Of a DNA stretch of 36,015 nt, positions 8,330 to 33,076 are shown one piece after another. The position numbers and the translations under genes are program-made. The notes beneath the pieces were generated by a model. The model was not told the origin of the DNA. It made no database searches and worked only from the letters and a program-made list of their open reading frames with translations. Position 1 is the first letter of the stretch. Each line of letters opens with the position of its first letter. The stretch comes from Deltaproteobacteria bacterium (GTDB lineage: Bacteria; Myxococcota_A; Bradymonadia; REDH01). Where the stretch lies: assembly GCA_007693585.1 (NCBI GenBank), contig REDH01000066.1, positions 1 through 36,015 on the forward strand. Direction: 5' to 3'.

Positions 8330-9511
8330 ATGCAGAACCACACCGCCGACAGCAGCGCCACCCTGGCGAGCCAGCCTGTCCAGATCGCGCCCAACACCTG
8401 GTGGGTCGGCAAGCGCCAGCCCGGCCAGATCTTCTACGCCAACCCCTACCTGCGCACCTTCCCCGAACGCGGAGGCAGCGACCCGAAGCCGGCGTTCCAC
8501 CTGCTGATCGACCCCGGCTCCAACAACGACTTCGCCGTGGTCCGCGCCAAGTCCGAGCGTGTCATCGGCAGCATCGACAAGGTCGGCGGCATCTTCATCA
8601 ACCACCAGGACCCGGACGTCGGCTCCGCCGTCGGACTCATGATGGGCCGCTACACCCCCCGCGCCCACGTGCTCTGCTCCGAGGACACCTGGCGCCTCGT
8701 GCAGTACTACAACATCCCGCGCGAGCGCTTCGTCCAGATGGAGCGCTTTCCCAACGGCATGTACTTCCCCAACGGCGAGGAGATCCTCCCCGTGCCGAGC
8801 CCCTTCTGCCACTTCGTCGGCGCGGTGATGCTCTACGACCCCCAGACGAAGGTCCTCTTCTCCGGGGACCTCTTCGGCGCCCTCACGGACAAGGAGGCCG
8901 AAGGACTGTTCGCCGACGAGAGCGATTGGGCAGGCATGCGCGCCTTCCACCAGATCTACATGCCCTCCAACCAGGCCCTGCGCTACGCCGTTCGCATGAT
9001 CCGCGAGAAGTGCCCGGACCTCGAAATGATCGCCCCGCAGCACGGGCGCGTCCTCCGCGGGGAGTGGGTGCAGGAGTTCATGCGCCGCATCGAGGCGCTG
9101 CCGGTCGGCCTCGACATCCTCGACGACCGCCAGGCCACCGATGACGAGCTCCGCGCGTGGACCACGGTCATGAACCGCGTCCTCGCCATGGCCGAGCCGT
9201 GGGTGCCCGATGCCCCCACCCTCCTCGCCGCGGACCCCGACCTGCGCGACCACCTGGAACGACACGCCGAGGGCCTGCGCGTCACCAGCATGGGCCGCGT
9301 CTGCATCGAGCGGGCCATCCGTCTGCTCTGCGACCGCCTGCCCGCCGAGGCCGCCGACCCGATCCGCTACGAGGCCGTCACCGCTGCCGGAGAGCTGGAC
9401 CTGCCGACCCCGAACATCGAACTCGACGAGGGCGACGCCCCGACCCCGGACGACAGCCCGCGCAAGACCCGAACCACCGGGCAGTTCGCGTTCGCCCGCA
9501 TCGGCGAGTGA
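8330..9511 (+). CDS. Metallo-beta-lactamase-fold diiron protein (flavodiiron/ODP-type), no flavodoxin domain
   Basis: A 393-residue protein with the diiron site of flavodiiron proteins. It has H92-x-D94-x-D96 (NHQDPD), His161 (PFCHFVGA), Asp180 (SGDLFG) 18 residues later, and His238 (PQHG). The H-x18-D spacing equals that of flavodiiron proteins, and the second carboxylate is Asp instead of Glu. Family members reduce O2 or NO, or act as oxygen-binding sensors (ODP). The usual C-terminal flavodoxin is replaced by ~120 residues of helical sequence followed by an acidic, Pro-rich tail, so it would need an external reductant or act as a sensor. The open frame reaches back to 8147, but that part is not protein-like; ATG 8330 is preferred. 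It converges with the App1-like gene, whose end is 12 bp away. Confidence 0.8.
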   Translation: MQNHTADSSATLASQPVQIAPNTWWVGKRQPGQIFYANPYLRTFPERGGSDPKPAFHLLIDPGSNNDFAVVRAKSERVIGSIDKVGGIFINHQDPDVGSAVGLMMGRYTPRAHVLCSEDTWRLVQYYNIPRERFVQMERFPNGMYFPNGEEILPVPSPFCHFVGAVMLYDPQTKVLFSGDLFGALTDKEAEGLFADESDWAGMRAFHQIYMPSNQALRYAVRMIREKCPDLEMIAPQHGRVLRGEWVQEFMRRIEALPVGLDILDDRQATDDELRAWTTVMNRVLAMAEPWVPDAPTLLAADPDLRDHLERHAEGLRVTSMGRVCIERAIRLLCDRLPAEAADPIRYEAVTAAGELDLPTPNIELDEGDAPTPDDSPRKTRTTGQFAFARIGE

Positions 9512-9523
9512 ACCAGGCGAACC

Positions 9524-10651
9524 CTACTCGAGGAACTGCAGCACCTTCTCCCGCAGGCGCGGCGGCTTGAACCGGCCGCTCCCCACCAGCGCCAGATAGT
9601 CCACGTCCTCGATCCACGGGGGCGTCGGCCGCTCGCGCACGTGCACCAGCTCGAGGGCCTCGCGGCTCGCTTCGAGGAATGCCGACGGCGGGCGCCCCAG
9701 GGTCTGCCCCGCCGCGTCCAGCTCGGCCTCCACCCGGGCGAAGAGCACCGGGCTCAGGAATCCGCGGCGCATCAGGTCCTGCACGCTGTTGGCGATGCGC
9801 GTCGGGGTGTACCCCTCGTCCTTGAGCGCCTCCAGCACGTGCAGCAGCGACCGCCCCGGGAGCTGCCCGTCGCCGAAGAGCACCAGGGACGCCTGGAAGT
9901 AGTTGAAGACCGGCACCACGCGGGCCCCGTAATCCAGAAAACGGCGAACCGGCGAGCGCCGGTCCAGGTGGATGATGATGCGGCGCACGCTGCCCTGGGC
10001 GGGACGCAGGGTGTCCTGCAGGGTGAGAATGCGGTCGATGTCCCGCGTGTAGACCCGGCACGCGACGAGGATGTCGAGCAGCCGGTCCGCGCCGATGCGG
10101 CCGGCGATCAGATCCCCGTACAGCGAGTAGATGTAGGCGTCGTGCTCGGCGTCGTCGCCGAAGAGCACCTCCTCCACGCGGTCGGCGTGGATGCGCGAGC
10201 GCAGGAGCGCCTCGAGCTTGTAGCCGACCTGCCCGCGCACGGCCCGAATCCGGAGCTTGAGCAGATTCTCGAGGTTGGGCTTGAGGATGAACTCCACGGG
10301 CTCGATGCCGTCCAGGCGCAACCGCTCGGTGAGCACCTTGCGCATCTGCCGCGGCGAGCCGCTGATGAAGGTCACGCGACGGGGCGCGAGCACCGTGTCG
10401 GGGTGGAGCAGCTCGCGCAGCAGGGTGCGCGCACCGGGAACGACCTGCTTCTCGTCGGCGCGCTGGCGGAAGGTGCGCACCAGATCACGGAACGTGTCGA
10501 ACTCCGTGCGCAGGTAGGTCTTGTCGAGATCCCAGCGGTAGTGGTGCAGGTGGCCACTCAGGCTCCGCGGCGCCGCGAGGGACCCGGGGGCGGATTCGGA
10601 GGCGGACTCGGAGGCGGGCGGCGCCTCCGCGGGCTCGATCGGCGAGGTCAT
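9524..10651 (-). CDS. HAD-superfamily protein, App1-like (phosphatidate phosphatase family)
   Basis: A 375-residue protein; the first ~30 residues are Ser/Ala/Pro-rich linker. The HAD nucleophile motif appears as WDLDKTYL (DxDxT). It is followed by FISGSPRQM, then a FILKP...VRGQVGYK segment with the conserved Lys, and LFGDDAEHDAYIY carrying the metal-binding acids. This order resembles the catalytic domain of App1/DUF2183 phosphatidate phosphatases, which dephosphorylate phosphatidic acid to diacylglycerol. The C-terminal ~150 residues are helical and unassigned. Its start overlaps the stop of the PlsX-like gene by 4 bp (ATGA), so the two are translationally coupled. Neighbouring a PlsX-like gene strengthens a lipid-phosphate role. 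The exact substrate is unknown. Confidence 0.75.
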   Translation of the reverse strand: MTSPIEPAEAPPASESASESAPGSLAAPRSLSGHLHHYRWDLDKTYLRTEFDTFRDLVRTFRQRADEKQVVPGARTLLRELLHPDTVLAPRRVTFISGSPRQMRKVLTERLRLDGIEPVEFILKPNLENLLKLRIRAVRGQVGYKLEALLRSRIHADRVEEVLFGDDAEHDAYIYSLYGDLIAGRIGADRLLDILVACRVYTRDIDRILTLQDTLRPAQGSVRRIIIHLDRRSPVRRFLDYGARVVPVFNYFQASLVLFGDGQLPGRSLLHVLEALKDEGYTPTRIANSVQDLMRRGFLSPVLFARVEAELDAAGQTLGRPPSAFLEASREALELVHVRERPTPPWIEDVDYLALVGSGRFKPPRLREKVLQFLE

Positions 10652-11658
10652 CGTGGGGTGTCCCGGGTGGCGTCGTCGAGGGCGCGCTGCACGTCGAGGC
10701 GGTCGATCTTGGCGGCCAGGCGGGCGGCGTTCACGAACGCGCGGCGACGCGCGCCGGACTGCAGGGTGATGACGGGGCGGGCGAGACCGAGGAGGGGCGC
10801 GCCGCCGTAGTTCTGCCAGTCGGTGAGCTCGCGCAGGGCCTCGATGCCGCCCCCGAGCATGGAGACGCCCATGCGCCAGCGAAAGCGCTTGCCGGCCCGC
10901 GCCAGGAGCTGCTCGGCGGTGGCGGCGAAGCCCTCGATCGTGCGGATGAGCAGCTCGCCGCTGTAGCCGTCGGAGACGACCACGTCGGCGTCGCCGAGCA
11001 GAATGCGGCTGCCGTCGGTGAGACCGGCGAAGGTGAACCGCTCTCCGGCGGCCTCGGCGAGCAGCGCGGCCGCCTCGGCGAGGCGAGGGGGGATGGCGTC
11101 CTCCTGTGAGGTGTTGGCGAGGAGGGCGACGCGGGGGGTCTCGTTCTCGGAGATCAGCCGGGCGTACACGGCGCCGAGAATGGCGTGCTCGAGGAGCACG
11201 GGGGCGGTGCTGTCGAGCTGGGCGCCGACGTCGAGGAGGAGGGCGAACGGGTCGTCGCGTTCACCGCGCAGCCGCACGGTGGGGTAGACGGCGGCGAGGG
11301 CGGGGCGGGTGACCCCGGGGAGGAGGGGCAGGATGTCACGGGCGTCCTGCAGCACGCGGTAGCGCGCCGCCGCGGTGACGACGGTGGAGCAAGGCAGGGC
11401 CGCGGCGTGCTCGAGGGTGGTGCGCAGGCCCCCGCCGTGCTCGGCGTCCTCGGCGTGAATGACGCGGAGCAGCTCCGCGTCGTGGGGGATCTCCTGAAGC
11501 GCCCGGGTGATCCGGGGCTCGTCGCCGACGACGCACAGGGGCGTGTCGAGATTGAGGCTGGCGAGGGCGGCTCCCTCGAGGGCCTCGTGTCCGGCGTCGA
11601 GGCCGTGGGTGACGTCGACGAGGATGGTGGTGCGGGTGTGCTCGGCGGCGCTGCGCAT
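10648..11658 (-). CDS. PlsX-like protein lacking canonical active-site motifs
   Basis: A 336-residue homologue of phosphate acyltransferase PlsX, which makes acyl-phosphate from acyl-ACP for phospholipid synthesis. Retained family segments are LLDVGAQLD, the NETPRVALL strand, VVVSDGYSGELLIRTIEG and NYGGAPLLGL. The N-terminal DAMGGDHAP motif is replaced by a DVTHGLDAGHEA stretch, and the SAGNTGA loop is replaced by TAAARYRVL. PlsX chemistry is therefore doubtful. It may bind acyl groups or phosphate, or act on another substrate. The gene begins 6 bp after the Clp stop codon and overlaps the next gene by 4 bp. It is likely a second copy beside a housekeeping plsX elsewhere; this is inference. 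Confidence 0.75.
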   Translation of the reverse strand: MRSAAEHTRTTILVDVTHGLDAGHEALEGAALASLNLDTPLCVVGDEPRITRALQEIPHDAELLRVIHAEDAEHGGGLRTTLEHAAALPCSTVVTAAARYRVLQDARDILPLLPGVTRPALAAVYPTVRLRGERDDPFALLLDVGAQLDSTAPVLLEHAILGAVYARLISENETPRVALLANTSQEDAIPPRLAEAAALLAEAAGERFTFAGLTDGSRILLGDADVVVSDGYSGELLIRTIEGFAATAEQLLARAGKRFRWRMGVSMLGGGIEALRELTDWQNYGGAPLLGLARPVITLQSGARRRAFVNAARLAAKIDRLDVQRALDDATRDTPR

Positions 11659-11664
11659 GGGTGC

Positions 11665-14619
11665 TCAGAGCTTGCGCGTGACGCGGGCGCGGCCGCTGGG
11701 GAGGGCGGGAACGACCGGAGGATCGCCGGTGGCGCTCGGCGGCCGGCCCCGGACGGCGGGGGTGGCGGTGCTGTCGGGGGCGGCGTCCGAGGCGGCGTCC
11801 GAGGCGGCGTCCGAGGCGGCGTCCGAGGCATCTTCGTCGCCGTGGAGGAGCCGCCGGGTGACGGGCTCGATGACCAGCTCGCGGAAGAGGGTCTCGAGGT
11901 GTTCGGTGGCGCCGTCTTCGGCAGCGCGGACGCGGAGGGTCTCGAGGATCTCCTCGTCGACGTCCAGGGGCACATCGAACTCGGCGCGAAGGCTCTGGCG
12001 CAGGTTCTCGAGCTGTTCGTCGATCCAGGCCTCGGCGTACCCCGAGCGGGCCTCGGCGGAGGTGAAGTCGACGAGGGTGACGCCAGCGCGCTCGAGGCGC
12101 TCGGCGAGGAGCTGATCCGCGCGGGGCAGGCGACTGCGCAGGGGGGGCGGCTCGCTGGTGCCGAAGCCGATGGACTGGGTGCGGGTGCTCTCGACGTCGA
12201 GGGTCAGGATGAAGGTCGCGTGCCGGGCGTCCGCGCGCAGCCCCCGGGTGTCGGCGAGCTCGCCGTCGCCGAGGAGGCGCAGGATGCGATCCTGCACGCG
12301 GGGGTGGGCGAGCTGGAAGCTCTGGAGGAGCACGACCGCGGCGGGGCGGCGGCGCAGCGGGGTGACGAGGGCGTCCTCGTCCTGGTAGCCAACGTATCCG
12401 GGGGCGGCACCGATGAGCCGGCTGAGGCTGTGGGCCTCCTGGTAGTCGCTCATGTCGAGGGAGATGACGGCGCGTTCGTCGCCGTGGAGCTCGCGAGCAA
12501 GGCCGCGGGCGAGGCGGGTCTTTCCGGAGCCGGCGGGCCCGATGAAGGCCATGGTGCAGGGCACGCCGGCGCCGTCGGCGCTGCGCAGCCGGCCCTGCAC
12601 GAGGGCGGTGGTGACCTCCGCGACGACCGCGTCGCGCCCGAGGGCGTGGTCGCGCAGGCGGCGGCGCAGGTCGGCCCACCAGCCGGGGCTGGAGGAGCGG
12701 AGGACCCGGTCGAGGGGAATGCCGGTCTTGCGGGCGACCTCGCGGGCCACGTCCTCGCGGTCGGCGGTGGGGCGGCGGGCGGGGGTGTTCCCTGCGGAGG
12801 AGGTGTCCCCTGCGGAGGGGGGGGAGTCCTCGGGCGCGGAGGGGTGGGCGGCGGCGTGTGCGGAGGCCACCGAGATGACCGCGTCCATGAGGACCTTCTT
12901 GGCCTTGTCGGGCAGGGCGGCCTCGGGCATGAAGCGGACGGAGAGGTCGATGGCGGCGTCGACGGCGTCGGGGGCGACGGTGACGCCGTAGGCCTCACCA
13001 TAGGTCGGCCCGAGTCCACCGAGGATCTCGGCGGTGAGGTCCCGCGACATCTCGGGGATGACGATGCGCTCGAACCGCCGCTGCAGCGCAGGATCCTGCT
13101 CGATCCACCGGTGGTACTCGGCCTCGGTGGTGGCGGCGACGACAGCGATGCGCCCGGAGGCGAGGGCGCTCTTGAAGTGGTTCGGCACCTCCGCGGGCTG
13201 GCCGGCCCCCAGACGGGGTGCGAACACGGCGTGGGCCTCGTCCATGAACAGGATGACGTCCTTCTCCGCCTCGTCGAGGATGGCGCGAATGCGGGCCTCG
13301 AGCTCACCGCGGTAGGAGGTGCCCCCGACAAGCCCGGCACCGTTGATCTCGATCACGCGCATGTTGCGCAGCCGCTCGGGCACCGTACCGGCAACGATGC
13401 GGCGGGCGAGGGCGACCGCGAGCGCGGTCTTGCCCACACCGGCCTCCCCGGTGAGGAGCGGATTGCGCTGCTCGGGGCGCAGGAGCACGTTGATGACCCG
13501 CTGCAGTTCCTCCTCCCGTCCACGGATGTCGGGCAGGCTACCCGCCCGCACCTCGGCGGTCAGGTCGCGGCCGAGCTGATCGAGCACCGGGCTGCCCTGC
13601 AGCGGAGCCTCGTCCGTGAACCCCGACCCCATCCCCGCGCCAGGCTCGTCGCGCTCCACCGCGTGGATCCGCGGCTCCCCGAGCTCCGAACGAAGCGGGA
13701 CGACGATCCCCAGGGTCTGCGCCAGGTCGAGGCTCGATCCGCCGTCGTCCAGAAACGCCTCCAGCAGCTCCGCCTCGCCGATGGTGTCCCCACCCCGCTC
13801 GAGCTTCTCCGACGCACCCACGATCATCCGCACCAGCCGCGGGGTCAGCGTGCGACGGCCCAGCGTGAACGCGGGCTGCGCCGGCTCGCGCCGGCCCACG
13901 ATGCGCATGAACTCGTCGTGCAGCCGCGTCGGCGTCACCGACGCCCGCAACGCCGCCCGGTACAGCGCACCCCCCTCCATCCGCGACAGCGACGCCATCA
14001 CGTGCGGCGTCCCCAGGAACGGCATCCCGGACTGCGACGCCAAACGCATCCCGTCCTGCAGAATCTCCCACATCGCCGTCGAGAACGCACCGCTGCGCAA
14101 CGAACCGTCCAGCTCGAACAGCCGCTCGTCCCCCGGCTGCGCGAGCTGCTTCAGCGCCCAGCGCACCGACGCCGAGTCCTGAAGCTCCGCACGCCAACGC
14201 ACCACGCGCACCAGATCCGCCTCCGACAGCCGCGTGCGCCCCGCCTCACGCGCCCACGCCATCGCGTCGTCCAGAATCCCGATCAGACCGAGCGAGAACT
14301 GGTCCAGATGAAGACCCGCCTCCCCCTCCCCACGCCGATCCACTCGACGCGCCAGCGCCTCAAGCTGCTCCACCAGCCCCGTCGCGTCGTCCCGGCCCCG
14401 CGCCACACGCGCGATCGAACGGCGCAGAGACGGATCCCCGCGCCGCAGCAACACGATGATCAGATCGATCGGCAGCATCATCGAGCGCTCCACCGTGCGC
14501 AGCCAGCCCACGCACGCCTCCAGCGCCTCCAGAGCCTCCGGATCGAAAAGGGAACGGTTCACCGCGCCGTCCTCCTGGAACAGCGACCTCGGCGCCTGCC
14601 CGTCCGTATCCGCGTCCAT
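11665..14619 (-). CDS. Clp-family AAA+ unfoldase with degenerate second ATPase domain
   Basis: 984 residues. Residues ~24-305 contain four helical repeats resembling half-units of Clp_N, i.e. two tandem Clp_N-like domains. D1 is canonical: Walker A GEAGVGKT at ~390, pore loop SYRG, Walker B ILFMDEAH (~456-463). D2 has Walker A GPAGSGKT (~694-701) and the GYVGYQDE pore loop, but Walker B reads VVLLQSFQLAH where DEIEKAH is expected. Both catalytic acids (~766-767) are lost, sensor-1 Asn is not evident, and the FRNRLD arginine-finger segment is altered. An IGF tripeptide (~817-819) sits where ClpA has its ClpP-docking loop. There is no ClpB-type coiled-coil middle domain. The C-terminal tail has an Ala/Ser/Asp repeat. 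ATG 14619 is preceded by GAGG. It is first in a three-gene operon. Codon use switches inside the gene (see findings). It should unfold or remodel proteins, possibly for ClpP. Confidence 0.9.
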   Translation of the reverse strand: MDADTDGQAPRSLFQEDGAVNRSLFDPEALEALEACVGWLRTVERSMMLPIDLIIVLLRRGDPSLRRSIARVARGRDDATGLVEQLEALARRVDRRGEGEAGLHLDQFSLGLIGILDDAMAWAREAGRTRLSEADLVRVVRWRAELQDSASVRWALKQLAQPGDERLFELDGSLRSGAFSTAMWEILQDGMRLASQSGMPFLGTPHVMASLSRMEGGALYRAALRASVTPTRLHDEFMRIVGRREPAQPAFTLGRRTLTPRLVRMIVGASEKLERGGDTIGEAELLEAFLDDGGSSLDLAQTLGIVVPLRSELGEPRIHAVERDEPGAGMGSGFTDEAPLQGSPVLDQLGRDLTAEVRAGSLPDIRGREEELQRVINVLLRPEQRNPLLTGEAGVGKTALAVALARRIVAGTVPERLRNMRVIEINGAGLVGGTSYRGELEARIRAILDEAEKDVILFMDEAHAVFAPRLGAGQPAEVPNHFKSALASGRIAVVAATTEAEYHRWIEQDPALQRRFERIVIPEMSRDLTAEILGGLGPTYGEAYGVTVAPDAVDAAIDLSVRFMPEAALPDKAKKVLMDAVISVASAHAAAHPSAPEDSPPSAGDTSSAGNTPARRPTADREDVAREVARKTGIPLDRVLRSSSPGWWADLRRRLRDHALGRDAVVAEVTTALVQGRLRSADGAGVPCTMAFIGPAGSGKTRLARGLARELHGDERAVISLDMSDYQEAHSLSRLIGAAPGYVGYQDEDALVTPLRRRPAAVVLLQSFQLAHPRVQDRILRLLGDGELADTRGLRADARHATFILTLDVESTRTQSIGFGTSEPPPLRSRLPRADQLLAERLERAGVTLVDFTSAEARSGYAEAWIDEQLENLRQSLRAEFDVPLDVDEEILETLRVRAAEDGATEHLETLFRELVIEPVTRRLLHGDEDASDAASDAASDAASDAAPDSTATPAVRGRPPSATGDPPVVPALPSGRARVTRKL
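11779..11826. repeat. 12-bp tandem repeat in the Clp C-terminal coding region
   Basis: Four perfect copies of GGCGGCGTCCGA (+ strand) encode the Ser-Asp-Ala-Ala repeats of the Clp tail on the minus strand. In-frame length variation between strains would be expected. Confidence 0.9.
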
Positions 14620-14848: not shown

Positions 14849-16156
14849 ATGTCCGACCGCCCCCCCACCCGCGGCAAGCGACTCTGGAAGCTCGCCTCCA
14901 TGTCCGCCTCCGTCGCCGGCGACTTCGCCCGCACACGCCTGCGAAACACCTTCCGCTCCCAGGAAGACGCCGAAGCCGACCAGCGCGAGAGCTTCCGACG
15001 CTCCGGCGAACGCATCGCCGAAACCCTCGGACAGCTCAAGGGCGCCGCCATGAAGGTCGGTCAGATGGCCTCCGTCGGCGCCGACCTCCTCCCCCGCGAA
15101 CTCTCCGACGCCCTCCGCGTCCTCCAGCGCGAAGCGCCCCCCATGCCCATCGAGGTCATCGAGGAACAGATCGAACGCGAATTCGGCGTCATCCCCGAAC
15201 GACTCTTCGCCTCCTTCAACCCCGAACCCTTCGCCGCCGCCTCCATCGGACAGGTCCACCGCGCCACCACCGACGACGGCGTCGAGGTCATCGTCAAGGT
15301 CCAGTACCCCGGCGTCGACGACTCCGTCGACACCGACCTCAACCACCTCCGCTTCGCACTGCGCGCCTCCGGAATGGTCGGACGCCACCACCGCGACGCC
15401 TTCGACCGGCTCTTCGAGGAACTCCGCTCCAAGCTCCACGAAGAACTCGACTACACCAACGAAGCCCACAACCTCCGACTCCTCCGCGAAGTCCACCGCG
15501 ACGACCCCTTCGTCCACCTCCCCGAAGTCATCGGCGAACGCTCCGCAAAACGCGTCCTCACCCTCTCCTTCGAAGACGGCACCCCCCTGCGCGAGGTCGA
15601 GGACACCTGGCCACAGGACCTCCGAAACACCATCGGCGCCAACCTCGTCCGCCTCCTCGCCCGACAGATCTTCGACGCCAGACTCATCCACGCCGACCCC
15701 AACCCCGGAAACTTCGCCTTCCGCGACGACGGCACCATCGTCCTCTACGACTACGGCTGCGTGAAGGCCCTCGACCCCGACACCATGGACGCCTGGGAAC
15801 ACGGCATCCGCGCAGGACTCCACGAGGACTACGAAGCCCTCGACGAAGCCCTCTTCCGCCTCGGAGCCCGACTCCCCGACTCCCCCCCCGTCGACGCCGA
15901 CTTCTACCGACCCTGGCGAGACATCATGCTCGAACCCTTCCTCGGCACCGACTACAACTTCGGCGAAGCCAGACTCCAGGAAAAGGCACGAAAGCTACTC
16001 CCCGACTTCTTCCGAAACATCCAGAGCTTCCAGCCACCCGTCGAGCTCGCCTTCCTCGACCGCACCATCGGCGGACACTACGGCACCCTCCGCCGACTCC
16101 GCGCCACCGGACCCTGGCGAGACATCGTCGCCCCCTGGATCGACCTCGACGCATGA
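14849..16156 (+). CDS. UbiB/ABC1/ADCK-type atypical kinase
   Basis: A 435-residue member of the UbiB family of protein-kinase-like ATPases, which support quinone or lipid metabolism at membranes. Diagnostic features are the KxGQ motif in the N-terminal extension (AAMKVGQMAS), the Ala-rich loop AAASIGQVH replacing the kinase Gly loop, the lysine of IVKVQYPG, catalytic HADPNPGNF, and the metal-binding DYG in place of DFG. There are no clear C-terminal transmembrane helices, so a soluble or peripheral form is likely. ATG 14849 follows no obvious Shine-Dalgarno. Its stop codon overlaps the start of the next gene (ATGA). It is divergent from the Clp operon across 229 bp. No ubiquinone or menaquinone genes are adjacent, so the substrate is unknown. 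Confidence 0.9.
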   Translation: MSDRPPTRGKRLWKLASMSASVAGDFARTRLRNTFRSQEDAEADQRESFRRSGERIAETLGQLKGAAMKVGQMASVGADLLPRELSDALRVLQREAPPMPIEVIEEQIEREFGVIPERLFASFNPEPFAAASIGQVHRATTDDGVEVIVKVQYPGVDDSVDTDLNHLRFALRASGMVGRHHRDAFDRLFEELRSKLHEELDYTNEAHNLRLLREVHRDDPFVHLPEVIGERSAKRVLTLSFEDGTPLREVEDTWPQDLRNTIGANLVRLLARQIFDARLIHADPNPGNFAFRDDGTIVLYDYGCVKALDPDTMDAWEHGIRAGLHEDYEALDEALFRLGARLPDSPPVDADFYRPWRDIMLEPFLGTDYNFGEARLQEKARKLLPDFFRNIQSFQPPVELAFLDRTIGGHYGTLRRLRATGPWRDIVAPWIDLDA

Positions 16157-20412: not shown

Positions 20413-21234
20413 ATGCGAAGCCTCGAGGGAAAGACACTGTTCATCACCGGCGCGAGCCGGGGAATCGGCAAGGCCATCGCCCTGCGGGCCGCCCGCGACG
20501 GAGCCAACGTCGTGGTGGCCGCCAAGACCACGGAGCCGCACCCGAAGCTCGAGGGGACGATCTTCACCGCCGCCGAGGAGATCGAGGCGGCCGGGGGAAG
20601 AGCGCTGCCGGTGAAGGTGGACATCCGCTCGGAGGAGGACGTCGACGCTGCGGTGGCGCAGGCGGTCGAGACGTTCGGAGGCATCGACATCTGCATCAAC
20701 AACGCGTCGGCCATCTCCCTGACGCCCACGCTGCAGACGGAAATGAAGCGCTACGACCTGATGCACCAGATCAACACCCGGGGCACCTTTCTGGTCTCCC
20801 AGCGCTGCCTGCCCCATCTGCTGAAGGCGGAGAACCCGCACATCCTGAACCTCTCGCCGCCGCTGAACATGGAGGAGCGCTGGTTCGCCCCCCATGTGGC
20901 CTATACCATGGCCAAGTTCGGGATGAGCATGTGCGTGCTCGGCATGGCCGGTGAGTTCCGCGAGCAGGGGGTCGGCGTCAACGCCCTGTGGCCACGCACC
21001 ACGATCGCCACCGCCGCCGTGCGCAACCTTCTCGGCGGCGAGGAGATGTGCCGCGCATCCCGCACCCCGGACATCATGGGCGAGGCGGCCTGGTACATCC
21101 TCACACGACCCTCGCGGGAGTGCACGGGGAACTTCTTCATCGACGACGAGGTGATGGCGTCGGAGGGCATCACCGATCTGACACCGTACGCCGTCGATCC
21201 CGAGGCCGAGCTGTTCCCCGACTTCTTCGTGTAG
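20413..21234 (+). CDS. Short-chain dehydrogenase, HSDL2-like
   Basis: A 273-residue Rossmann-fold oxidoreductase. The cofactor motif TGASRGIG (~12-19) and the INNAS motif are present, and the catalytic YxxxK is YTMAK. The segments LNLSPPLNM, WFAPHVAYTMAKFGMSMCVLGMA and NALWPRT are those of hydroxysteroid-dehydrogenase-like protein 2 (HSDL2), a peroxisomal or mitochondrial lipid enzyme in animals. The SCP2 sterol-carrier domain that follows in animal HSDL2 is absent. The substrate is unknown, probably a fatty-acyl or sterol-like hydroxy compound. ATG 20413 is preferred over TTG 20407 because GGAG (20399-20402) is then 10 bases away. The kinase gene follows after 26 bp. Confidence 0.85.
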   Translation: MRSLEGKTLFITGASRGIGKAIALRAARDGANVVVAAKTTEPHPKLEGTIFTAAEEIEAAGGRALPVKVDIRSEEDVDAAVAQAVETFGGIDICINNASAISLTPTLQTEMKRYDLMHQINTRGTFLVSQRCLPHLLKAENPHILNLSPPLNMEERWFAPHVAYTMAKFGMSMCVLGMAGEFREQGVGVNALWPRTTIATAAVRNLLGGEEMCRASRTPDIMGEAAWYILTRPSRECTGNFFIDDEVMASEGITDLTPYAVDPEAELFPDFFV

Positions 21235-21260
21235 CTCCTCCGAATCGCCCCGGCCGCGCC

Positions 21261-24200
21261 GTGCGTCCCGACCCCAGCCAGCCCGATGAACCCCTGCCCT
21301 CGACCGCCTCCCGGGGCCGGTTCGAGCGCCGTGGCATGCTGGGGCGTGGCGGCATGGGGATCGTGTGGCTGGCGTGGGACCGCGAACGCCAGCAGGAGGT
21401 TGCGCTCAAGCGGATGAATGACCTGCGGCCCGACCAGCTCCGGCGATTCAAGAATGGCTTTCGCGCCCTGCAGGACATCCGCCACCCCGGCCTGGCCCGG
21501 ATGTTCGAGCTCGGCACCGACGACGAGGGGCCCTACCTCGTCATGGAGCCGATCCATGGCGTCGACCTCCTGACCTACGTCCATGGCCCGGGCGAGATCA
21601 CCTTCGCGCCGCCTCCCCCCGAGCTCACCGATCCCGACCGGAGCACCTCGCGGGTCTTTCACGGCACCGAGCCCATCCAGCTCGCGGAGATCCGCGCCCT
21701 CCGGGCCCAGACCGGACCCATCGTGGTCACCGACCGGCGTCCGGTGCAGCGACGGCCCATCGACAGCGAGGCCGGCCTCGCGCTCACCCAGCCCATCGCC
21801 CCGGGCGAGGCCCGCCACCCCGGCAGCAGCGGCAGCGCCAGCACCGGAACGCTCCGCTCCCGGCCGCTGTCGGTCGACCACCGCAGGGAGCGCCGCAGCA
21901 GCGGCACCGAGTCCATCGAGCGCCCTCCCCTCAACCTTGCGCGGCTCGCCCACGTCCTGCCCCAGCTCCTCGAGGCCCTCCTCGCCCTCCATGCCCACGG
22001 TCAGATCCACCGCGATCTCAAGCCGCGGAATGTCCTCGTGGATGGCACCGGGACCCTCAAGCTGCTCGACTTCGGCGTCGTCGCCGAGAGCGGACGGCCG
22101 CTGCAGGGAACGCTCTGCGGCACCATCGGCTACATCGCCCCCGAGGAGTTCGGCGGCTCCCCTCCCGGACCCGCCTCCGACCGCTACGCCCTCGGCGCCA
22201 TCCTCTTCCGGATGTTCTCCGGGCGCGCCCCCTTCGAAGGCTCCCGAGCCGAAGTGCTCCGCCAGACCCTGCGCAGTCGCCCACCGCTCCTCGAGGACAT
22301 CGCCCCCTGGACTCCGGTGAACGTCGGAATCCTGGTCGACCAGCTCCTGCACCCCGTTCCCGCCGAGCGACCCGGCGGCGCCGAGATCGCCGCCGTCTTC
22401 CGACGGGAACTCGGCATGCGCCCCATCCAGACGGAGCGTCGTGACGCCACCCGGCTGCTCGACGACGGCCAGCAGACCGCGCATCAGCTCCTGCGCCACG
22501 TCCGCGCCGGAGACGATCAGCCCAGGCTCACGCTCCTCACCGGCCCCCGCGACAGCGGAAAAAGACTCGCCCTGAGGCGACTCGCCACCCTCGCCGAGCA
22601 GCAGGGCTGGTGCATCCTCTCCGGACGCGCCACCCCCGACGACCGCGTCCCCTACTCCGCCCTCGACGGCGTCGTCGACAGCCTCTCTCTCACCCTGCGC
22701 ACCGACCCCGACGACCTCACCGACCCCCTGCCCCCCGAGGTCCTCGCGGCGCGGCACGTGCTCGCCCACCTCTTCCCGGTCCTCCGCGACGACACCTTCC
22801 GCCGCCTCGATCCCCCACCGGACCGGCCCGCCATCGTCGCCGCGCTGCTGACCTGCCTCGGTCACCTCGCCGAGCGGCACGCCGGCGCCCTCATCATCCT
22901 GCACGACGTCCACCTCGTCGACGGCGACTGCGAACTCCTGCTGGAGGCCGTCCTCCGGAACCCGCCCCAAGGCCTCCGCATCGTCGCCTCCACGGTCCCG
23001 GGGATCTTCAGCGGCGGCGCCCCGAACGACCACGACCAGGCCGTCCCCCTCCTCCGCCTCCTCGTGCGGTCGCAGAGCGGACTGGCCCGGCCCGTCCCCC
23101 TCGCGCCGCCGTCCGTCGACGCCATCGCCCACCGCATCGCCCGCGCCATCCGCCAGCCCGAGGCCCACAACGCGCCCCGCGTCCGCGCCCTCGCCCGCGC
23201 CTGCCAGGGGCATCCACGGCTCGCCATCCTCGCCGGCCGGCTGCTCCCCCACCTCCCGGCCGACAACCTCCCCACCGACCTCTGGCGCGCCTGGGTGGAC
23301 CACGCACTCCCACGGATCACCGACCAGGCGCTCGACGTCCTCTCCCTCGTCACCGTCGCCGACCACCCCCTCACCACCGACACCGTACACGCCTGCACCG
23401 GGCTCGACCCCACCGTCGTCCGCGAGGCCATCGAGCTGCTGCGCGACGCCGCACTCGCCGATGTCGACGCCGGGTCCCGACCCGGACCCCGCCTCGGAGT
23501 CGCCAGCCCCCACCTGCGCCCGCCCCTCCTCGATGCCCTCGCGCCCGCACGGCTCCAGCGCGCCCGACGCGCCCTCATCGAACACCTCGAACACGCCCAC
23601 GCCCGCAACCTCCCGCGGCTCATCCGGCTCTACCTCGACGAGGGAAGGACCCTCGACGCCCAACGCGCGGCACGCGCCGCCGCCGAGGACGCCCGCCAGC
23701 GGCTCGCCTGGGACTTCGCCGCCGAAATGTTCGCCCTCGCCGCCGACAACCCAGAGCTCTCCGACGAGGAGCGCGCTCACCTCATCATCGAACGCGCCCG
23801 CTGCCACGACGCCAACGGCCTCTACGACGAAGCCGCCGAGCTGTGGAGTCGCGCCGCCACCTTCTCCGGGCTTCCCCGGGACATCGCCCGCACCGCACGA
23901 CGGGGCCGGGCGATCGCCCAGCTCGCCGCCGGACGCGCCGAGGACGTCGCCCGGGACCTCCCCGGCCTCCGGCTCGGACGCGACGACAGCCCTCCGATCC
24001 TGCAGCGGCTGCGAAGCATGTGGGCGAAGACCCTCTTTCTCACCGGCGCGCCCGCGTCGCGCTGGTGGCGGGACGTCACGGGAGGTCTGCGACTCGGGCC
24101 CGCACACAGCGAGGAGACCGAACGGGAAGGGACCCTCGACATCCGTCTCGCCGGGCTCGTGCTCTTCCATGACCCCGAACAGGGCATGGTCCTCCTCATC

Positions 24201-25268
24201 CGCCTCATGCGCCGGCAGGCCCGCTCCCGCAGCGCAGGACCCTTCTCCTACGGACTCGCCCTCCTCGCCTTCATCGCCTCCCACACCGACCGAACCCCCA
24301 AGGGCCTCCGGCGAGCAAGGCTCTATCGTCAGGCCGCCCGGCGAATCACCGAGCTCGCCGACGAACAGGCCCGCACCGACACCCTCCTGCTCGACCGCTT
24401 CCTCGAAGGACACCTCGCCCTGCGCAGCGGCCACTGGTCCGAGGCCATCGCCCACTTCAGCGCCGTCGACCAGGCCCTCCAGACCATCGGACACGGACCC
24501 ACCTTCGACCGCGCCCTCGTGTGGATCCAGCGCGGCCAGGCACTCCAGTGCAACCAGAACCCCGCGCTGCTCCAGGATCACAACCAGCGGCTCCGCCACG
24601 TCTTCACCCGCGTCGACTCACGCGCCATCCTCGGACACGCCGACCTCCTCGACGCCGCACTCGCCCGGTGGCGCGGATCGCCCGACGCCGCCCGACAGCT
24701 CCTCGACCACTGGCTCCATCGCCCCCCGGACGACCTCCAGCACACCCAGGACGTCTACGGCGCCTGCTGCGCACACCTCGCCCGCACCACCCTCGACCAC
24801 GACGCCCTCGGCACCGACCTCCCCCGACTCCACGAAACCCTCGACGTCGCACGCAGACGCGGCCTCGAACGACGCGCCGGATTCCACTTCATCGCCGGAC
24901 CCGCAGCGCTCGCCGAGGCCGCGGCCGTCCGGCTCGGACTCCGCATCGCCGAGCCCAGACGCGCCCGCAGACTCGCCCGCATCGCCCGACACTCGCCCCC
25001 CGGACACCACGGACCCGCCCACCGCGCACTCGCCTACCTCCACGACGCCGCCGGTCGACCCGAACGCGCCCTCGAACACCTCCGCGCCGCCGAAGAGAGC
25101 GCCCTGCGACACGAACAGCCACTCGACGTCGCCATCGCACGACACCAGCTCGGACGACGGCTCGGCGGAGACGCAGGCCTGGCCCTCTCCGCCCGCGCGC
25201 GGGAGACCTTCCGACAGGCCGGAGCCGCCGAGGCCCTCCTCGACGAAGACCCACGCGAACCGGCCTGA
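21261..25268 (+). CDS. Ser/Thr protein kinase fused to a P-loop ATPase and TPR-like region
   Basis: 1335 residues. The kinase domain (~20-410) has Gly loop GRGGMG, Lys50 (VALK), catalytic HRDLKPRN with Asp252, DFG Asp270 and IAPEE. Between hinge and helix E (~111-223) a ~110-residue Ser/Thr/Arg/Pro-rich insertion interrupts the fold. A PknK-type/STAND-like ATPase follows, with P-loop GPRDSGKR (~428-435), where the usual Thr/Ser after Lys is Arg, and a Walker B-like LIILHDVH (~545-552). The rest (~740-1320) is Ala/Leu/Arg-rich helical repeat sequence of TPR type. The whole is cytoplasmic, since no membrane helix is seen, and typical of signalling proteins of myxobacteria. GTG 21261 is chosen because no in-frame ATG precedes the Gly loop; there is no clear Shine-Dalgarno. 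The peptidase gene starts 6 bp after it, suggesting functional pairing. Confidence 0.9.
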   Translation: MRPDPSQPDEPLPSTASRGRFERRGMLGRGGMGIVWLAWDRERQQEVALKRMNDLRPDQLRRFKNGFRALQDIRHPGLARMFELGTDDEGPYLVMEPIHGVDLLTYVHGPGEITFAPPPPELTDPDRSTSRVFHGTEPIQLAEIRALRAQTGPIVVTDRRPVQRRPIDSEAGLALTQPIAPGEARHPGSSGSASTGTLRSRPLSVDHRRERRSSGTESIERPPLNLARLAHVLPQLLEALLALHAHGQIHRDLKPRNVLVDGTGTLKLLDFGVVAESGRPLQGTLCGTIGYIAPEEFGGSPPGPASDRYALGAILFRMFSGRAPFEGSRAEVLRQTLRSRPPLLEDIAPWTPVNVGILVDQLLHPVPAERPGGAEIAAVFRRELGMRPIQTERRDATRLLDDGQQTAHQLLRHVRAGDDQPRLTLLTGPRDSGKRLALRRLATLAEQQGWCILSGRATPDDRVPYSALDGVVDSLSLTLRTDPDDLTDPLPPEVLAARHVLAHLFPVLRDDTFRRLDPPPDRPAIVAALLTCLGHLAERHAGALIILHDVHLVDGDCELLLEAVLRNPPQGLRIVASTVPGIFSGGAPNDHDQAVPLLRLLVRSQSGLARPVPLAPPSVDAIAHRIARAIRQPEAHNAPRVRALARACQGHPRLAILAGRLLPHLPADNLPTDLWRAWVDHALPRITDQALDVLSLVTVADHPLTTDTVHACTGLDPTVVREAIELLRDAALADVDAGSRPGPRLGVASPHLRPPLLDALAPARLQRARRALIEHLEHAHARNLPRLIRLYLDEGRTLDAQRAARAAAEDARQRLAWDFAAEMFALAADNPELSDEERAHLIIERARCHDANGLYDEAAELWSRAATFSGLPRDIARTARRGRAIAQLAAGRAEDVARDLPGLRLGRDDSPPILQRLRSMWAKTLFLTGAPASRWWRDVTGGLRLGPAHSEETEREGTLDIRLAGLVLFHDPEQGMVLLIRLMRRQARSRSAGPFSYGLALLAFIASHTDRTPKGLRRARLYRQAARRITELADEQARTDTLLLDRFLEGHLALRSGHWSEAIAHFSAVDQALQTIGHGPTFDRALVWIQRGQALQCNQNPALLQDHNQRLRHVFTRVDSRAILGHADLLDAALARWRGSPDAARQLLDHWLHRPPDDLQHTQDVYGACCAHLARTTLDHDALGTDLPRLHETLDVARRRGLERRAGFHFIAGPAALAEAAAVRLGLRIAEPRRARRLARIARHSPPGHHGPAHRALAYLHDAAGRPERALEHLRAAEESALRHEQPLDVAIARHQLGRRLGGDAGLALSARARETFRQAGAAEALLDEDPREPA

Positions 25269-25274
25269 CGCCTC

Positions 25275-26243
25275 ATGCTGCGACTGCTCCTCGCTGCCCT
25301 CGTCGCCCTGCCCGTCAGCGCGCTCCTGTGGATCAACCCCGGCGTCCACCCCGCCTGGGCCGCCCTCCCCCCAGCCCTCACCCTCGCCATCGTCCTCCCC
25401 ATCGAACGCAGGGAGCGACGACGCCGCAACGTCCACGCCTCCGCCACCCTCGCCCCGGGCGTCCGCGCCTTCCTCGAGGACCACGTCGCCTTCCACCACC
25501 GCCTCGACCCCGACGAACAGGCCGAGTTCCACCGCCGCTGCGCCGTCTTCCTCCGCGAACAGCGCATCACCGGAGTCGGCGTCGAACTCGACGACGACAT
25601 CCGCGCCGCCGTCGCCGCCTCCGCCGTCATCCTCACCTTCGGACTGCGCGCCCCGTTCTGGGAAAACCTCCGAGAAATCCTCATCTATCCCGAACGCTTC
25701 GACCTCGACTACACCGTCGACGAGGACGGCGAGCTCCTCGGGCTCATGCACGACCAGGGCCCCCTCATCTTCGCCGCCGACGAGCTCGTCGACGGCTTCG
25801 CCCTCGGCGAGGACGGCGTCAACGTCGGCCTCCACGAATTCGCCCACGTCCTCGACTTCGAAGGCGGCGGACTCGACGGTGTCCCCATGCACCTCAACCC
25901 CGAGTCCGCACGCACCTGGCGCCGGCAGATCGTCGACAGCGTCCGCGCCGCACGCAACAACCCCGCCCTCTTCGAGCTCCTCGGTGACTACGCCTTCACC
26001 GACCAGGTCGAGTTCTTCGCCTGCATGACCGAATCCTTCTTCGAGCTGCCCGACCTCCTCCACCAGGCCGCGCCCGACCTCTACGACGTCATGCGCGACC
26101 TCTACCACCAGGACCCCCTCGCCCGACTCACCGACGAGGACCGCGCCGCCCTCCTGCACGATGACCCGATCGAGGACCTCCCCCCCGACGACCGCGACGG
26201 TCCCCCCGTCTCCTGGGACGACGACCACGACCCCTTCGGATGA
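25275..26243 (+). CDS. MtfA-like zinc metallopeptidase (M90) with N-terminal membrane segment
   Basis: 322 residues. Residues ~1-45 form one or two hydrophobic helices ending in the basic stop-transfer ERRERRRR, so the protein is membrane-anchored, unlike soluble E. coli MtfA. The peptidase part has HEFAH (187-191; HExxH) and a downstream VEFFACMTESFFE helix supplying the third ligand, as in M90. MtfA in enterobacteria is an aminopeptidase that binds the glucose regulator Mlc; no Mlc system is visible here. An acidic Asp/Pro tail closes the protein. It begins 6 bp after the kinase stop codon without its own Shine-Dalgarno, so translation is probably coupled. Confidence 0.88.
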   Translation: MLRLLLAALVALPVSALLWINPGVHPAWAALPPALTLAIVLPIERRERRRRNVHASATLAPGVRAFLEDHVAFHHRLDPDEQAEFHRRCAVFLREQRITGVGVELDDDIRAAVAASAVILTFGLRAPFWENLREILIYPERFDLDYTVDEDGELLGLMHDQGPLIFAADELVDGFALGEDGVNVGLHEFAHVLDFEGGGLDGVPMHLNPESARTWRRQIVDSVRAARNNPALFELLGDYAFTDQVEFFACMTESFFELPDLLHQAAPDLYDVMRDLYHQDPLARLTDEDRAALLHDDPIEDLPPDDRDGPPVSWDDDHDPFG

Positions 26244-30569: not shown

Positions 30570-32966
30570 TCAGCCCCGCTCACGCTCGGCGGCGGCGACG
30601 ACCTCCTTGACGCGCAGGAAGCTGTCGGGGGTGACGGAGATCGAGTCGATGCCGCGTTCGACGAGAAAGGCGGCGAACTCGGGGTGGTCGCTGGGGCCCT
30701 GTCCGCACAGGCCGATCTTCGCCCCGGCGAGCTGTGCGGCGCGGATGACGTGGCCGATCATCCACCTCACGGCCTCGTCCTGTTCGTCGAAGAGGGCGGC
30801 GAGGCCCTCGGAGTCGCGGTCGACGCCGAGGGTGAGCTGGGTGAGGTCGTTGGAGCCGATGGAGAAGCCATCGAAGCGCTCGGCGAAGGCGGGGGCGAGG
30901 ATGATGTTCGAGGGCACCTCGGCCATGACGTAGACCTCGAGCCCGTCGCGGCCGCGCTCCAGCCCGTTTTCGGCCATGACCTTGAGCACGCCGTCGGCCT
31001 CGGCGACGGAGCGGCAGAAGGGGATCATGACGACGACGTTCCGGAAGCCCATTTCCTCTCGGAGCCTTCGGATGGCGCGGCACTCGAGGTCGAAGCCGGG
31101 GCGGTAGCGCGGGGAGGTGTAGCGGGAGGCGCCGCGAAAGCCGATCATGGGGTTCTCTTCGGGCGTCTCGAAGGCGGCGCCGCCGAGGAGTCCGGCGTAT
31201 TCGTTGGTCTTGAAATCGCTCATGCGCACGATGCAGGGCTTCGGGTGCACGGCGGCGGCGATGCGGGAGAGCCCCCGGGCCAGCCGGTCGACGAAGAACT
31301 CCTCCTTGTCGTCGTATCCTGCGGTGAGCTCGGCGATTTCGGCCTTGGCGGCGGCGTCCTCGAGGCGGTCGAACTGCACGAGGGCCATGGGATGGGCCTT
31401 GATGTGGTTGGAGACGACGAACTCCATGCGGGCCAGTCCCACGCCGTCGGCGGGCAGGCGCCACCAGCGGAAGGCGGCGCCGGGGTTGGCGAGGTTGAGC
31501 ATCACTCGGGTGCGCGTCTCGGGGGCGCTGGACGGGTCGAGCTCCTCTTCGGTGATGGTGGCGTGTCCGGCGTGAACGAGCCCGGCGTCCCCTTCGGCGC
31601 AGTTGACGGTGATCTCCTGGCCGTCGTGGAGCACGTGGGTGGCGTCGCTCGTCCCGACGATGGCGGGCAGGCCGAGCTCGCGGCTGACGATGGCGGCGTG
31701 GCTGGTGCGTCCGCCGCGGTCGGTGACGATGGCGGCGGCGCGCTTCATGATCGGGACCCAGTCGGGGTCGGTGTTCCGGGTGACGAGGATGGCGCCGTCC
31801 TCGAAGCGGGCGATGTCGGCCACGTCCTCGATGAGGCAGACGCGGCCGGTGATGACCTGGTCGCCGACGCTGAGGCCCTTCGAGAGCACGGGGCCCTTGT
31901 CGGAGACGCGGAAGCTGCGGAAGGTGCCGGCGTCCTTGCGCGACTGGACGGTCTCGGGCCGGGCCTGGACGATGAAGAGCGCTCCGGTCTCGCCGTCGCG
32001 GGCCCATTCGATGTCCATCGGGCAGCCGTAGTGGTCCTCGATGACGCAGGCCCAGCGGCCGAGGGTGAGGATCTCGTCGTCGCACAGGACGAAACCCGCG
32101 CGCTCGGCCTTCGAGGTGGGCACGGTGCGGGTGGGCCGCTCCTCGTCGCGGGCGTAGATCATCTTGATCTCCTTTCGCCCGAGCCGCTTCTCGAGAATGG
32201 GCACGAGGGTGTCGTCGGCGAGGAGCGGCTTGAAGACCTGGTATTCGTCGGGGTCGACGAGTCCCTGGACGACGGTTTCGCCGAGCCCCCAGGCGGCGTC
32301 GATGACGGCGACGCGATCGAAGCCCGACTCGGTGTCGAGGGTGAACATGACGCCGGAGCCGCCGGTGTCGGCGCGGACCATGGCCTGCACGCCGACGGAC
32401 AGGGCGACCTTCATGTGGTCGAAGCCCTTCGCGACGCGGTAGCTGATGGCGCGGTCGGTGAAGAGGGAGGCGAAGCAGCGCCGGCAGGCGGAGAGGAGGG
32501 CGTCCTCGCCGCGGATGTTGAGGAAGGTTTCCTGCTGGCCGGCGAAGCTGGCGTCGGGGAGGTCCTCGGCGGTCGCCGAGGAGCGCACGGCGACGTCGGC
32601 GTTCACGCGGCCGATGCGGTCGCAGAGCTCGCGGTAGGCCGCGCGGATGGCCTGGGCGGTGTCCTCGGGGAAGTCGCCCCGGAGCACGGCGGCGCGGATG
32701 GCGGCGCCGGTCTCGGCGAGGGTGGCCTTGCCCGCCTCCAGGTCCTGCAGGAATCCGGCGATGCGGTCCGAAAGGCCGTTGGCGGCGACGAAGTGCCAGT
32801 AGGCGTCGGAGGTGGTGGCGAAGCCCGGGGGCACGGCCACACCCTTCGCGCCGAGGTGGCGCACCATCTCGCCGAGGGAGGCGTTCTTGCCCCCGACGCG
32901 GGGCACGTCGTCGCGGCCCAGCGCGTCGAAACCGATGATGTGTACGAAGTCTCCTGCGCTCTTCAT
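30570..32966 (-). CDS. ppsA: Phosphoenolpyruvate synthase
   Basis: A 798-residue pyruvate, water dikinase that converts pyruvate and ATP to PEP, AMP and phosphate for gluconeogenesis. The N-terminal ATP-grasp part includes GGKNASLGEM and VAVRSSATAEDLPDASFAGQQ. The swivelling phosphohistidine domain has GGRTSHAAIVSRELG with His423, equivalent to His421 of the E. coli enzyme. The C-terminal TIM barrel carries GLARMEF, IGFRGASRY, SIGSNDLTQL and the GLCGQGPSD segment with the active-site Cys. Length equals the usual ~790. ATG 32966 has a G-rich ribosome binding site (GAGGGGGGG). Codon use mixes G- and C-ending codons, unlike the C-rich neighbours. No PpsR regulatory kinase gene is adjacent. Confidence 0.97.
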   Translation of the reverse strand: MKSAGDFVHIIGFDALGRDDVPRVGGKNASLGEMVRHLGAKGVAVPPGFATTSDAYWHFVAANGLSDRIAGFLQDLEAGKATLAETGAAIRAAVLRGDFPEDTAQAIRAAYRELCDRIGRVNADVAVRSSATAEDLPDASFAGQQETFLNIRGEDALLSACRRCFASLFTDRAISYRVAKGFDHMKVALSVGVQAMVRADTGGSGVMFTLDTESGFDRVAVIDAAWGLGETVVQGLVDPDEYQVFKPLLADDTLVPILEKRLGRKEIKMIYARDEERPTRTVPTSKAERAGFVLCDDEILTLGRWACVIEDHYGCPMDIEWARDGETGALFIVQARPETVQSRKDAGTFRSFRVSDKGPVLSKGLSVGDQVITGRVCLIEDVADIARFEDGAILVTRNTDPDWVPIMKRAAAIVTDRGGRTSHAAIVSRELGLPAIVGTSDATHVLHDGQEITVNCAEGDAGLVHAGHATITEEELDPSSAPETRTRVMLNLANPGAAFRWWRLPADGVGLARMEFVVSNHIKAHPMALVQFDRLEDAAAKAEIAELTAGYDDKEEFFVDRLARGLSRIAAAVHPKPCIVRMSDFKTNEYAGLLGGAAFETPEENPMIGFRGASRYTSPRYRPGFDLECRAIRRLREEMGFRNVVVMIPFCRSVAEADGVLKVMAENGLERGRDGLEVYVMAEVPSNIILAPAFAERFDGFSIGSNDLTQLTLGVDRDSEGLAALFDEQDEAVRWMIGHVIRAAQLAGAKIGLCGQGPSDHPEFAAFLVERGIDSISVTPDSFLRVKEVVAAAERERG

Positions 32967-33047
32967 GGAAGCCCCCCCTCGGATCGATCCGGAAATGTGT
33001 GGAGTGCCTGGCCGACGACTGTCGGGCGGCCTCCGGGAATGAGCCGA

Positions 33048-33076
33048 TGGGTAGGATCGCGGGTGCATGCCCGCAA
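33048..33076 (-). promoter_or_regulatory. Candidate ppsA promoter
   Basis: On the minus strand TTGCGG (33076-33071), 17-bp spacer, TACCCA (33053-33048), about 82 bp before the ppsA ATG. The rest of the 295-bp gap (32967-33261) contains only the doubtful small frame at 33150 and a short AT-richer patch near 33162-33176. Confidence 0.35.

Follow-up and report, generated by a model that had tools for sequence, protein, structure and literature searches.

In the window, the 36,015-nucleotide stretch of DNA analysed here, a gene for a degenerate PlsX homologue lies directly before a gene for an APP1-like phosphatase of the HAD superfamily, and it is this pair of genes, not the three-gene operon to which it belongs here, that is conserved across the phylum. 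PlsX ranks among the core enzymes of bacterial lipid metabolism and is a target for drugs. The homologue described here, PlsX2, belongs to a second PlsX clade and serves, by a narrow balance of probability, as a non-catalytic, PlsX-fold partner of an APP1-type lipid-phosphate phosphatase. The retained pairing across many families is a sign of a lipid-phosphatase pair, as yet undescribed, in which one partner is a dead enzyme, and the persistence under strong selection of a PlsX clade from which otherwise invariant residues are gone suggests a second job for the fold.

The trio is encoded on the minus strand in the order Clp-like, PlsX2 and APP1-like (Table 1), and reading of the window confirmed all three open frames as real. 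An earlier note on this DNA had taken the genes for one operon, which the coordinates of the open reading frames bear out: clp and plsX2 are 6 bp apart, and plsX2 and app1 share a 4-bp ATGA overlap. That note knew of no described system with this trio, and none was found in the open-access literature. On the app1 side, an ODP-family (flavodiiron-like) gene of metallo-beta-lactamase fold (8330-9511, plus strand) converges on app1 at a distance of 12 bp; upstream of clp lies a divergent ABC1/UbiB-like atypical kinase gene (14849-16156, plus strand), and after it comes a gene for a 331-aa protein that has no Pfam match. The window also encodes a large Ser/Thr kinase with AAA_16 and TPR domains (20988-25268), an M90 peptidase (25275-26243) and a pyruvate phosphate dikinase/PEP synthase-like protein (30570-33068, minus strand). 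The window is contig 11 of a genome (G000, family f1) that measures 4.97 Mb, is 97.7% complete and belongs to a class that is very probably the Bradymonadia.

Table 1. Genes of the operon and motifs of their products (window coordinates).
Feature	Position	Strand	Remarks
Clp-like two-ring AAA+ protein, 984 aa	11665..14619	-	extra N-terminal region; D1 intact; D2 degenerate, Walker A kept
D1 Walker A GEAGVGKTAL (residues 391-400)	13420..13449	-	intact
D1 Walker B VILFMDEAHAVF (residues 455-466)	13222..13257	-	intact
D2 Walker A GPAGSGKTRL (residues 694-703)	12511..12540	-	intact
D2 Walker B VVLLQSFQLAHP (residues 762-773)	12301..12336	-	both acids lost, DE to QS; LLDEIEKAHP in canonical paralogues
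IGF tripeptide (residues 817-819)	12163..12171	-	ClpP-docking loop position; [IM]GF in 16/16 orthologues
PlsX2, degenerate second-clade PlsX homologue, 336 aa	10648..11658	-	
DAMGGD position, here DVTHGL (residues 15-20)	11599..11616	-	
SAGNTG position, here TAAARY (residues 95-100)	11359..11376	-	
APP1-like HAD phosphatase, 375 aa	9524..10651	-	
HAD motif I DLDKT (D41, D43, T45)	10517..10531	-	D, D, T conserved 34/34
HAD motif IV region GDDAE (residues 165-169)	10145..10159	-	G-D-D and E conserved 34/34

PlsX2 is a clear member of the FA_synthesis family (PF02504, E 7.8e-38), yet it scores 135 bits against the plsX equivalog model TIGR00182, whose cut-off is 243.4 bits. The window protein does not carry the full GGD, SAG[N/H][T/S]G and DGFxGN residues of functional PlsX, and the loss of the GGD and SAGNTGA motifs reported in the earlier note is thereby upheld. 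A first scan of genome contigs with this protein returned only ordinary PlsX of other phyla. In our tree, ordinary PlsX (PlsX1) separates from the PlsX2 group with branch support 100/100, and families f2 and f19 carry both. The degenerate PlsX2 sequences form one subclade of 22 rows (families f1, f4, f5, f7, f12 and f37, and genome G232; support 99/97). In the alignment columns, the GGD Asp is found in 27/27 intact PlsX1 and PlsX2 sequences versus 2/22 degenerate rows, the SAGNTG Thr/Ser in 27/27 versus 0/22, and the DGFxGN Asn in 27/27 versus 3/22; the invariance of these three residues in the other rows suggests that they are catalytic. One alignment also included a B. subtilis PlsX sequence, which was excluded from every subsequent count and tree.

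The LDxGA Asp, both DGFxGN glycines and the YGGAPLLG glycines are present in all 22 degenerate rows, and PlsX2 shares fold, length and the LDxGA, DGxxG and YGGAPLLG motifs with PlsX of known structure (1VI1, 6A1K, 1U7N), while differing from it in clade and in the missing Asp, Thr and Asn. A model of the window protein, of modest quality (mean pLDDT 63), best matches solved PlsX, with a TM score of 0.71 to 1VI1. The W-R-x-G-L tip that marks PlsX2 is also retained in the degenerate subclade and sits where B. subtilis PlsX has its membrane peptide (PMC6702220). The tip is conserved in sequence and its helical moment in the window copy does not exceed that of shuffled sequences, so that its amphipathy was dropped as proof of membrane binding.

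These features bear on two alternative readings of PlsX2. One takes plsX2 for a decaying relic that survives only because it precedes app1 in the transcript; motif decay and the outright loss of PlsX from several Bradymonadia genomes are in line with it. Against it, dN/dS between close relatives within the degenerate subclade (family f5, the window copy being too distant, so that the figure is that of its relatives) is 0.03-0.13, about as low as for the phosphatase, fold and pocket glycines are invariant, and the linkage is long-lived, which makes a relic very improbable. The profile of degenerate PlsX2 is, on present sequences, that of a putative pseudoenzyme under selection. The other reading keeps PlsX2 as an enzyme of changed chemistry, for instance an acyl-CoA phosphotransacylase, with APP1 acting on its product in acyl-phosphate turnover or fatty acid release. 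Paired PlsX2 proteins with full motifs occur in families f2, f11, f25, f30 and f32, which makes it probable that the pair was catalytic at first; such an activity is also favoured by the glycines of the phosphate pocket, retained throughout the degenerate rows. We nevertheless regard it as rather unlikely for the window protein, in whose clade three invariant residues were lost together and whose genome has no AcpP above cut-off, FakB or PlsY. The series from intact to degenerate PlsX2 beside an invariant phosphatase makes the suggested second job of the fold testable.

The earlier note had raised the case of a genome with no other plsX; a second PlsX was indeed not found in the window genome, but PlsY, stand-alone FabD and AcpP above cut-off are absent as well. 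The only FabD-type (AT) domain lies within a 2161-aa frame, matches to ACP are weak, and searches of this genome for FakB/DegV found none; PlsB is present. Lacking PlsY, FakB, stand-alone FabD and an AcpP over the cut-off, and using PlsB, the genome is without the acyl-phosphate route, and no known enzyme that makes or uses acyl-phosphate is present in it. A housekeeping role for the window PlsX2 was considered and is probably to be rejected, the acyl-phosphate pathway being missing around it. With the FakAB-PlsX-PlsY pathway the genome thus shares one PlsX homologue and lacks FakB and PlsY; unlike PlsX, PlsX2 is paired with a phosphatase and not with fab genes, in a genome devoid of PlsY and FAS-II markers. 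Two genomes, G009 and G232, are exceptions, combining degenerate PlsX2 with an AcpP over the cut-off. In cultured members of the Bradymonadales FAS-II is incomplete and FadL abundant, and the Bradymonadia are predators (PMC7460792). Several genomes of family f1 (genus g2) and of family f3 have no PlsX, PlsY, FabD or APP1 and keep PlsB, and a complete loss of fatty acid synthesis is likely in those g2 and f3 lineages.

The distribution of the pair was examined in a sample of 284 genomes spread over the phylum. At E 1e-30, 164 of them have an APP1 relative; PlsX relatives occur in 138. By the coordinates listed, at least 52 genomes of 12 families have plsX2 and app1 side by side on one strand, with plsX first and app1 downstream in 52/52 cases; such counts are lower bounds, the pair of genome G078, for example, being adjacent on direct reading and lying outside the 52. 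We read 24 loci besides the window directly: each contains both genes, the other neighbours vary from genus to genus, and no further conserved neighbour of the pair was found in these loci. Protein trees of PlsX2 and APP1 agree on their main groups, including one in which G000 and G232 join G002; the pair therefore travels together. The pair closest to that of the window (50% and 53% identity) belongs to G232, a genome of another class (family f34; G232:C46, L133), where it occurs without clp; its grouping with f1 in both trees is probably due to horizontal transfer. A virus collection searched with APP1 yielded nothing.

The linkage has exceptions. The genomes of family f7 have the two genes at separate places, and six f5 genomes have app1 but lack any PlsX, from which it follows that PlsX2 is not needed everywhere. 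In f7, and there only, plsX2 adjoins a gene for an unassigned 331-394 aa protein instead of app1 (L035:9373-10557, L036:9580-10575, L037:2269-3426, L038:7207-8220); this protein has no convincing Pfam match, the best being Frankia_peptide, below cut-off.

The phosphatase shows none of the decay of its partner. The window protein matches APP1_cat (PF09949) with E 7.1e-9 and 36.2 bits, above the 27.1-bit cut-off, and all four HAD motifs are intact (RWDLDKTY, SGSP, K and FGDD), so that the DxDxT signature noted earlier stands. Residues D41, D43, T45, S97, S99, K124, K145, D166 and D167 are invariant in 34/34 APP1 sequences, which include those beside degenerate PlsX2 and those that stand alone. 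It shares with the APP1 phosphatidate phosphatases the catalytic domain, DxDxT, the motif II Ser, the motif III Lys and the motif IV Asp-Asp, and differs from them in being bacterial, in a C-terminal region particular to it, some 200 residues long and without a Pfam match, and in its PlsX2 partner. A model built without alignment (pLDDT 39.5) was left out of the evidence. Bacterial APP1-like proteins, formerly DUF2183, would here gain their first genetic partner; the open-access literature searched on DUF2183, on PlsX pseudoenzymes and on bacterial APP1 contained nothing on the plsX2-app1 pair. Yeast App1 is a phosphatidate phosphatase, according to work cited in PMC12357310, and by this analogy the substrate of the window enzyme would be a lipid phosphate.

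Under the preferred reading of PlsX2 as a non-catalytic partner, the protein would no longer make acyl-phosphate and would instead bind an acyl ligand, a phosphate ligand or a membrane face, thereby positioning or regulating APP1, which, after the yeast enzyme, would dephosphorylate phosphatidate or lysophosphatidate. In fatty-acid-scavenging predators, the pair may steer prey-derived lipid between phospholipid and neutral lipid, which may help explain how predators unable to make fatty acids handle the lipids of their prey. A broader proposal, which we put forward tentatively, somewhat short of an even chance, is that of an undescribed, phylum-wide two-component lipid-phosphate phosphatase, in which the PlsX paralogue has a regulatory or membrane-placing function and has become a pure pseudoenzyme subunit in the fatty-acid-scavenging predators.

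The Clp-like protein appears to be a separate matter. It has the two AAA+ rings of the Clp/Hsp100 proteins (Pfam AAA, AAA_2 and AAA_lid_9). Compared with canonical paralogues, D1 has intact Walker A, pore loop, Walker B, sensor and arginine fingers, and D2 keeps its Walker A and a GYVGY pore loop. The earlier note was right that D2 is without Walker B acids, with VVLLQSFQLAHP in place of the VLLLDEIEKAHP of canonical paralogues in related genomes, and the ring also lacks the arginine fingers and sensors of a catalytic D2: FRNRLD, the T-S-N sensor and the GAR-P sensor 2 are absent in 16/16 orthologues. The D2 Walker B is scrambled across these proteins, as EDID or EDFD in most of f5 and f7 and as KDFH, DGFN or QSFQ in f1. 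The ClpA/ClpC-type [IVLM]G[FL] loop is nonetheless present in D2 as IGF; such loops serve in ClpP docking (PMC9035409). The window protein shares with ClpC and ClpA (PDB 3J3S and others) the D1/D2 arrangement, the D1 motifs, the GYVGY pore loop and the IGF loop, whereas in its orthologue family the D2 Walker B, sensor 1, arginine fingers and sensor 2 are degenerate and the N-terminal region differs. Its top NCBIfam scores are to ClpB and ClpV (TssH), yet they reach less than half of the cut-offs. To our knowledge, neither of these families carries a ClpP loop, in contrast to the IGF of the window protein.

Clp orthologues (43-54% identity over about 920 residues) were found in 6/6 f1 genomes, in the f5 genomes searched and in 4/5 f7 genomes searched; only ordinary Clp proteins were found in the f2, f3, f4, f6 and f8 genomes searched. 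Within genus g2 their dN/dS is 0.06-0.09. The earlier note had gone further, proposing a conserved Clp-PlsX-APP1 module with the unfoldase in control of a lipid-phosphate or acyl-binding step, and here it does not hold: the trio occurs in 2/6 genomes of the family and at 0/23 other loci with the pair, and the Clp orthologue is conserved in the Bradymonadia independently of PlsX and APP1. One machine of three proteins, in which the pseudo-Clp would remodel PlsX2 or APP1 or deliver either to ClpP, therefore seems improbable to us, four f1 members having Clp with neither PlsX nor APP1 and the f5 and f7 genomes sampled having it away from the pair. It can call on the IGF loop, on the ClpP gene of the window genome and on the tight operon shared by G000 and G002, the only genomes in which clp adjoins plsX2-app1, which must be long-lasting because the proteins of the two are only 45-54% alike.

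The Clp-like protein is better described as an independent, class-wide ClpA/ClpC derivative with a degenerate D2 and a conserved ClpP-docking IGF. Separate from the lipid pair, it would use D1 as its motor, with D2 as a non-hydrolysing ring whose IGF loop probably remains able to dock ClpP, and its place in the operon would be a local arrangement in two genera. With a degenerate D2 and a retained ClpP loop, the pseudo-Clp offers a second, separate test case for the purpose of D2. G002 and the pair-less genus g2 share the genes that lie upstream of clp, one for a transketolase and one for a 127-131 aa protein; the clp site is therefore ancestral, and the pair was either placed beside it or lost.
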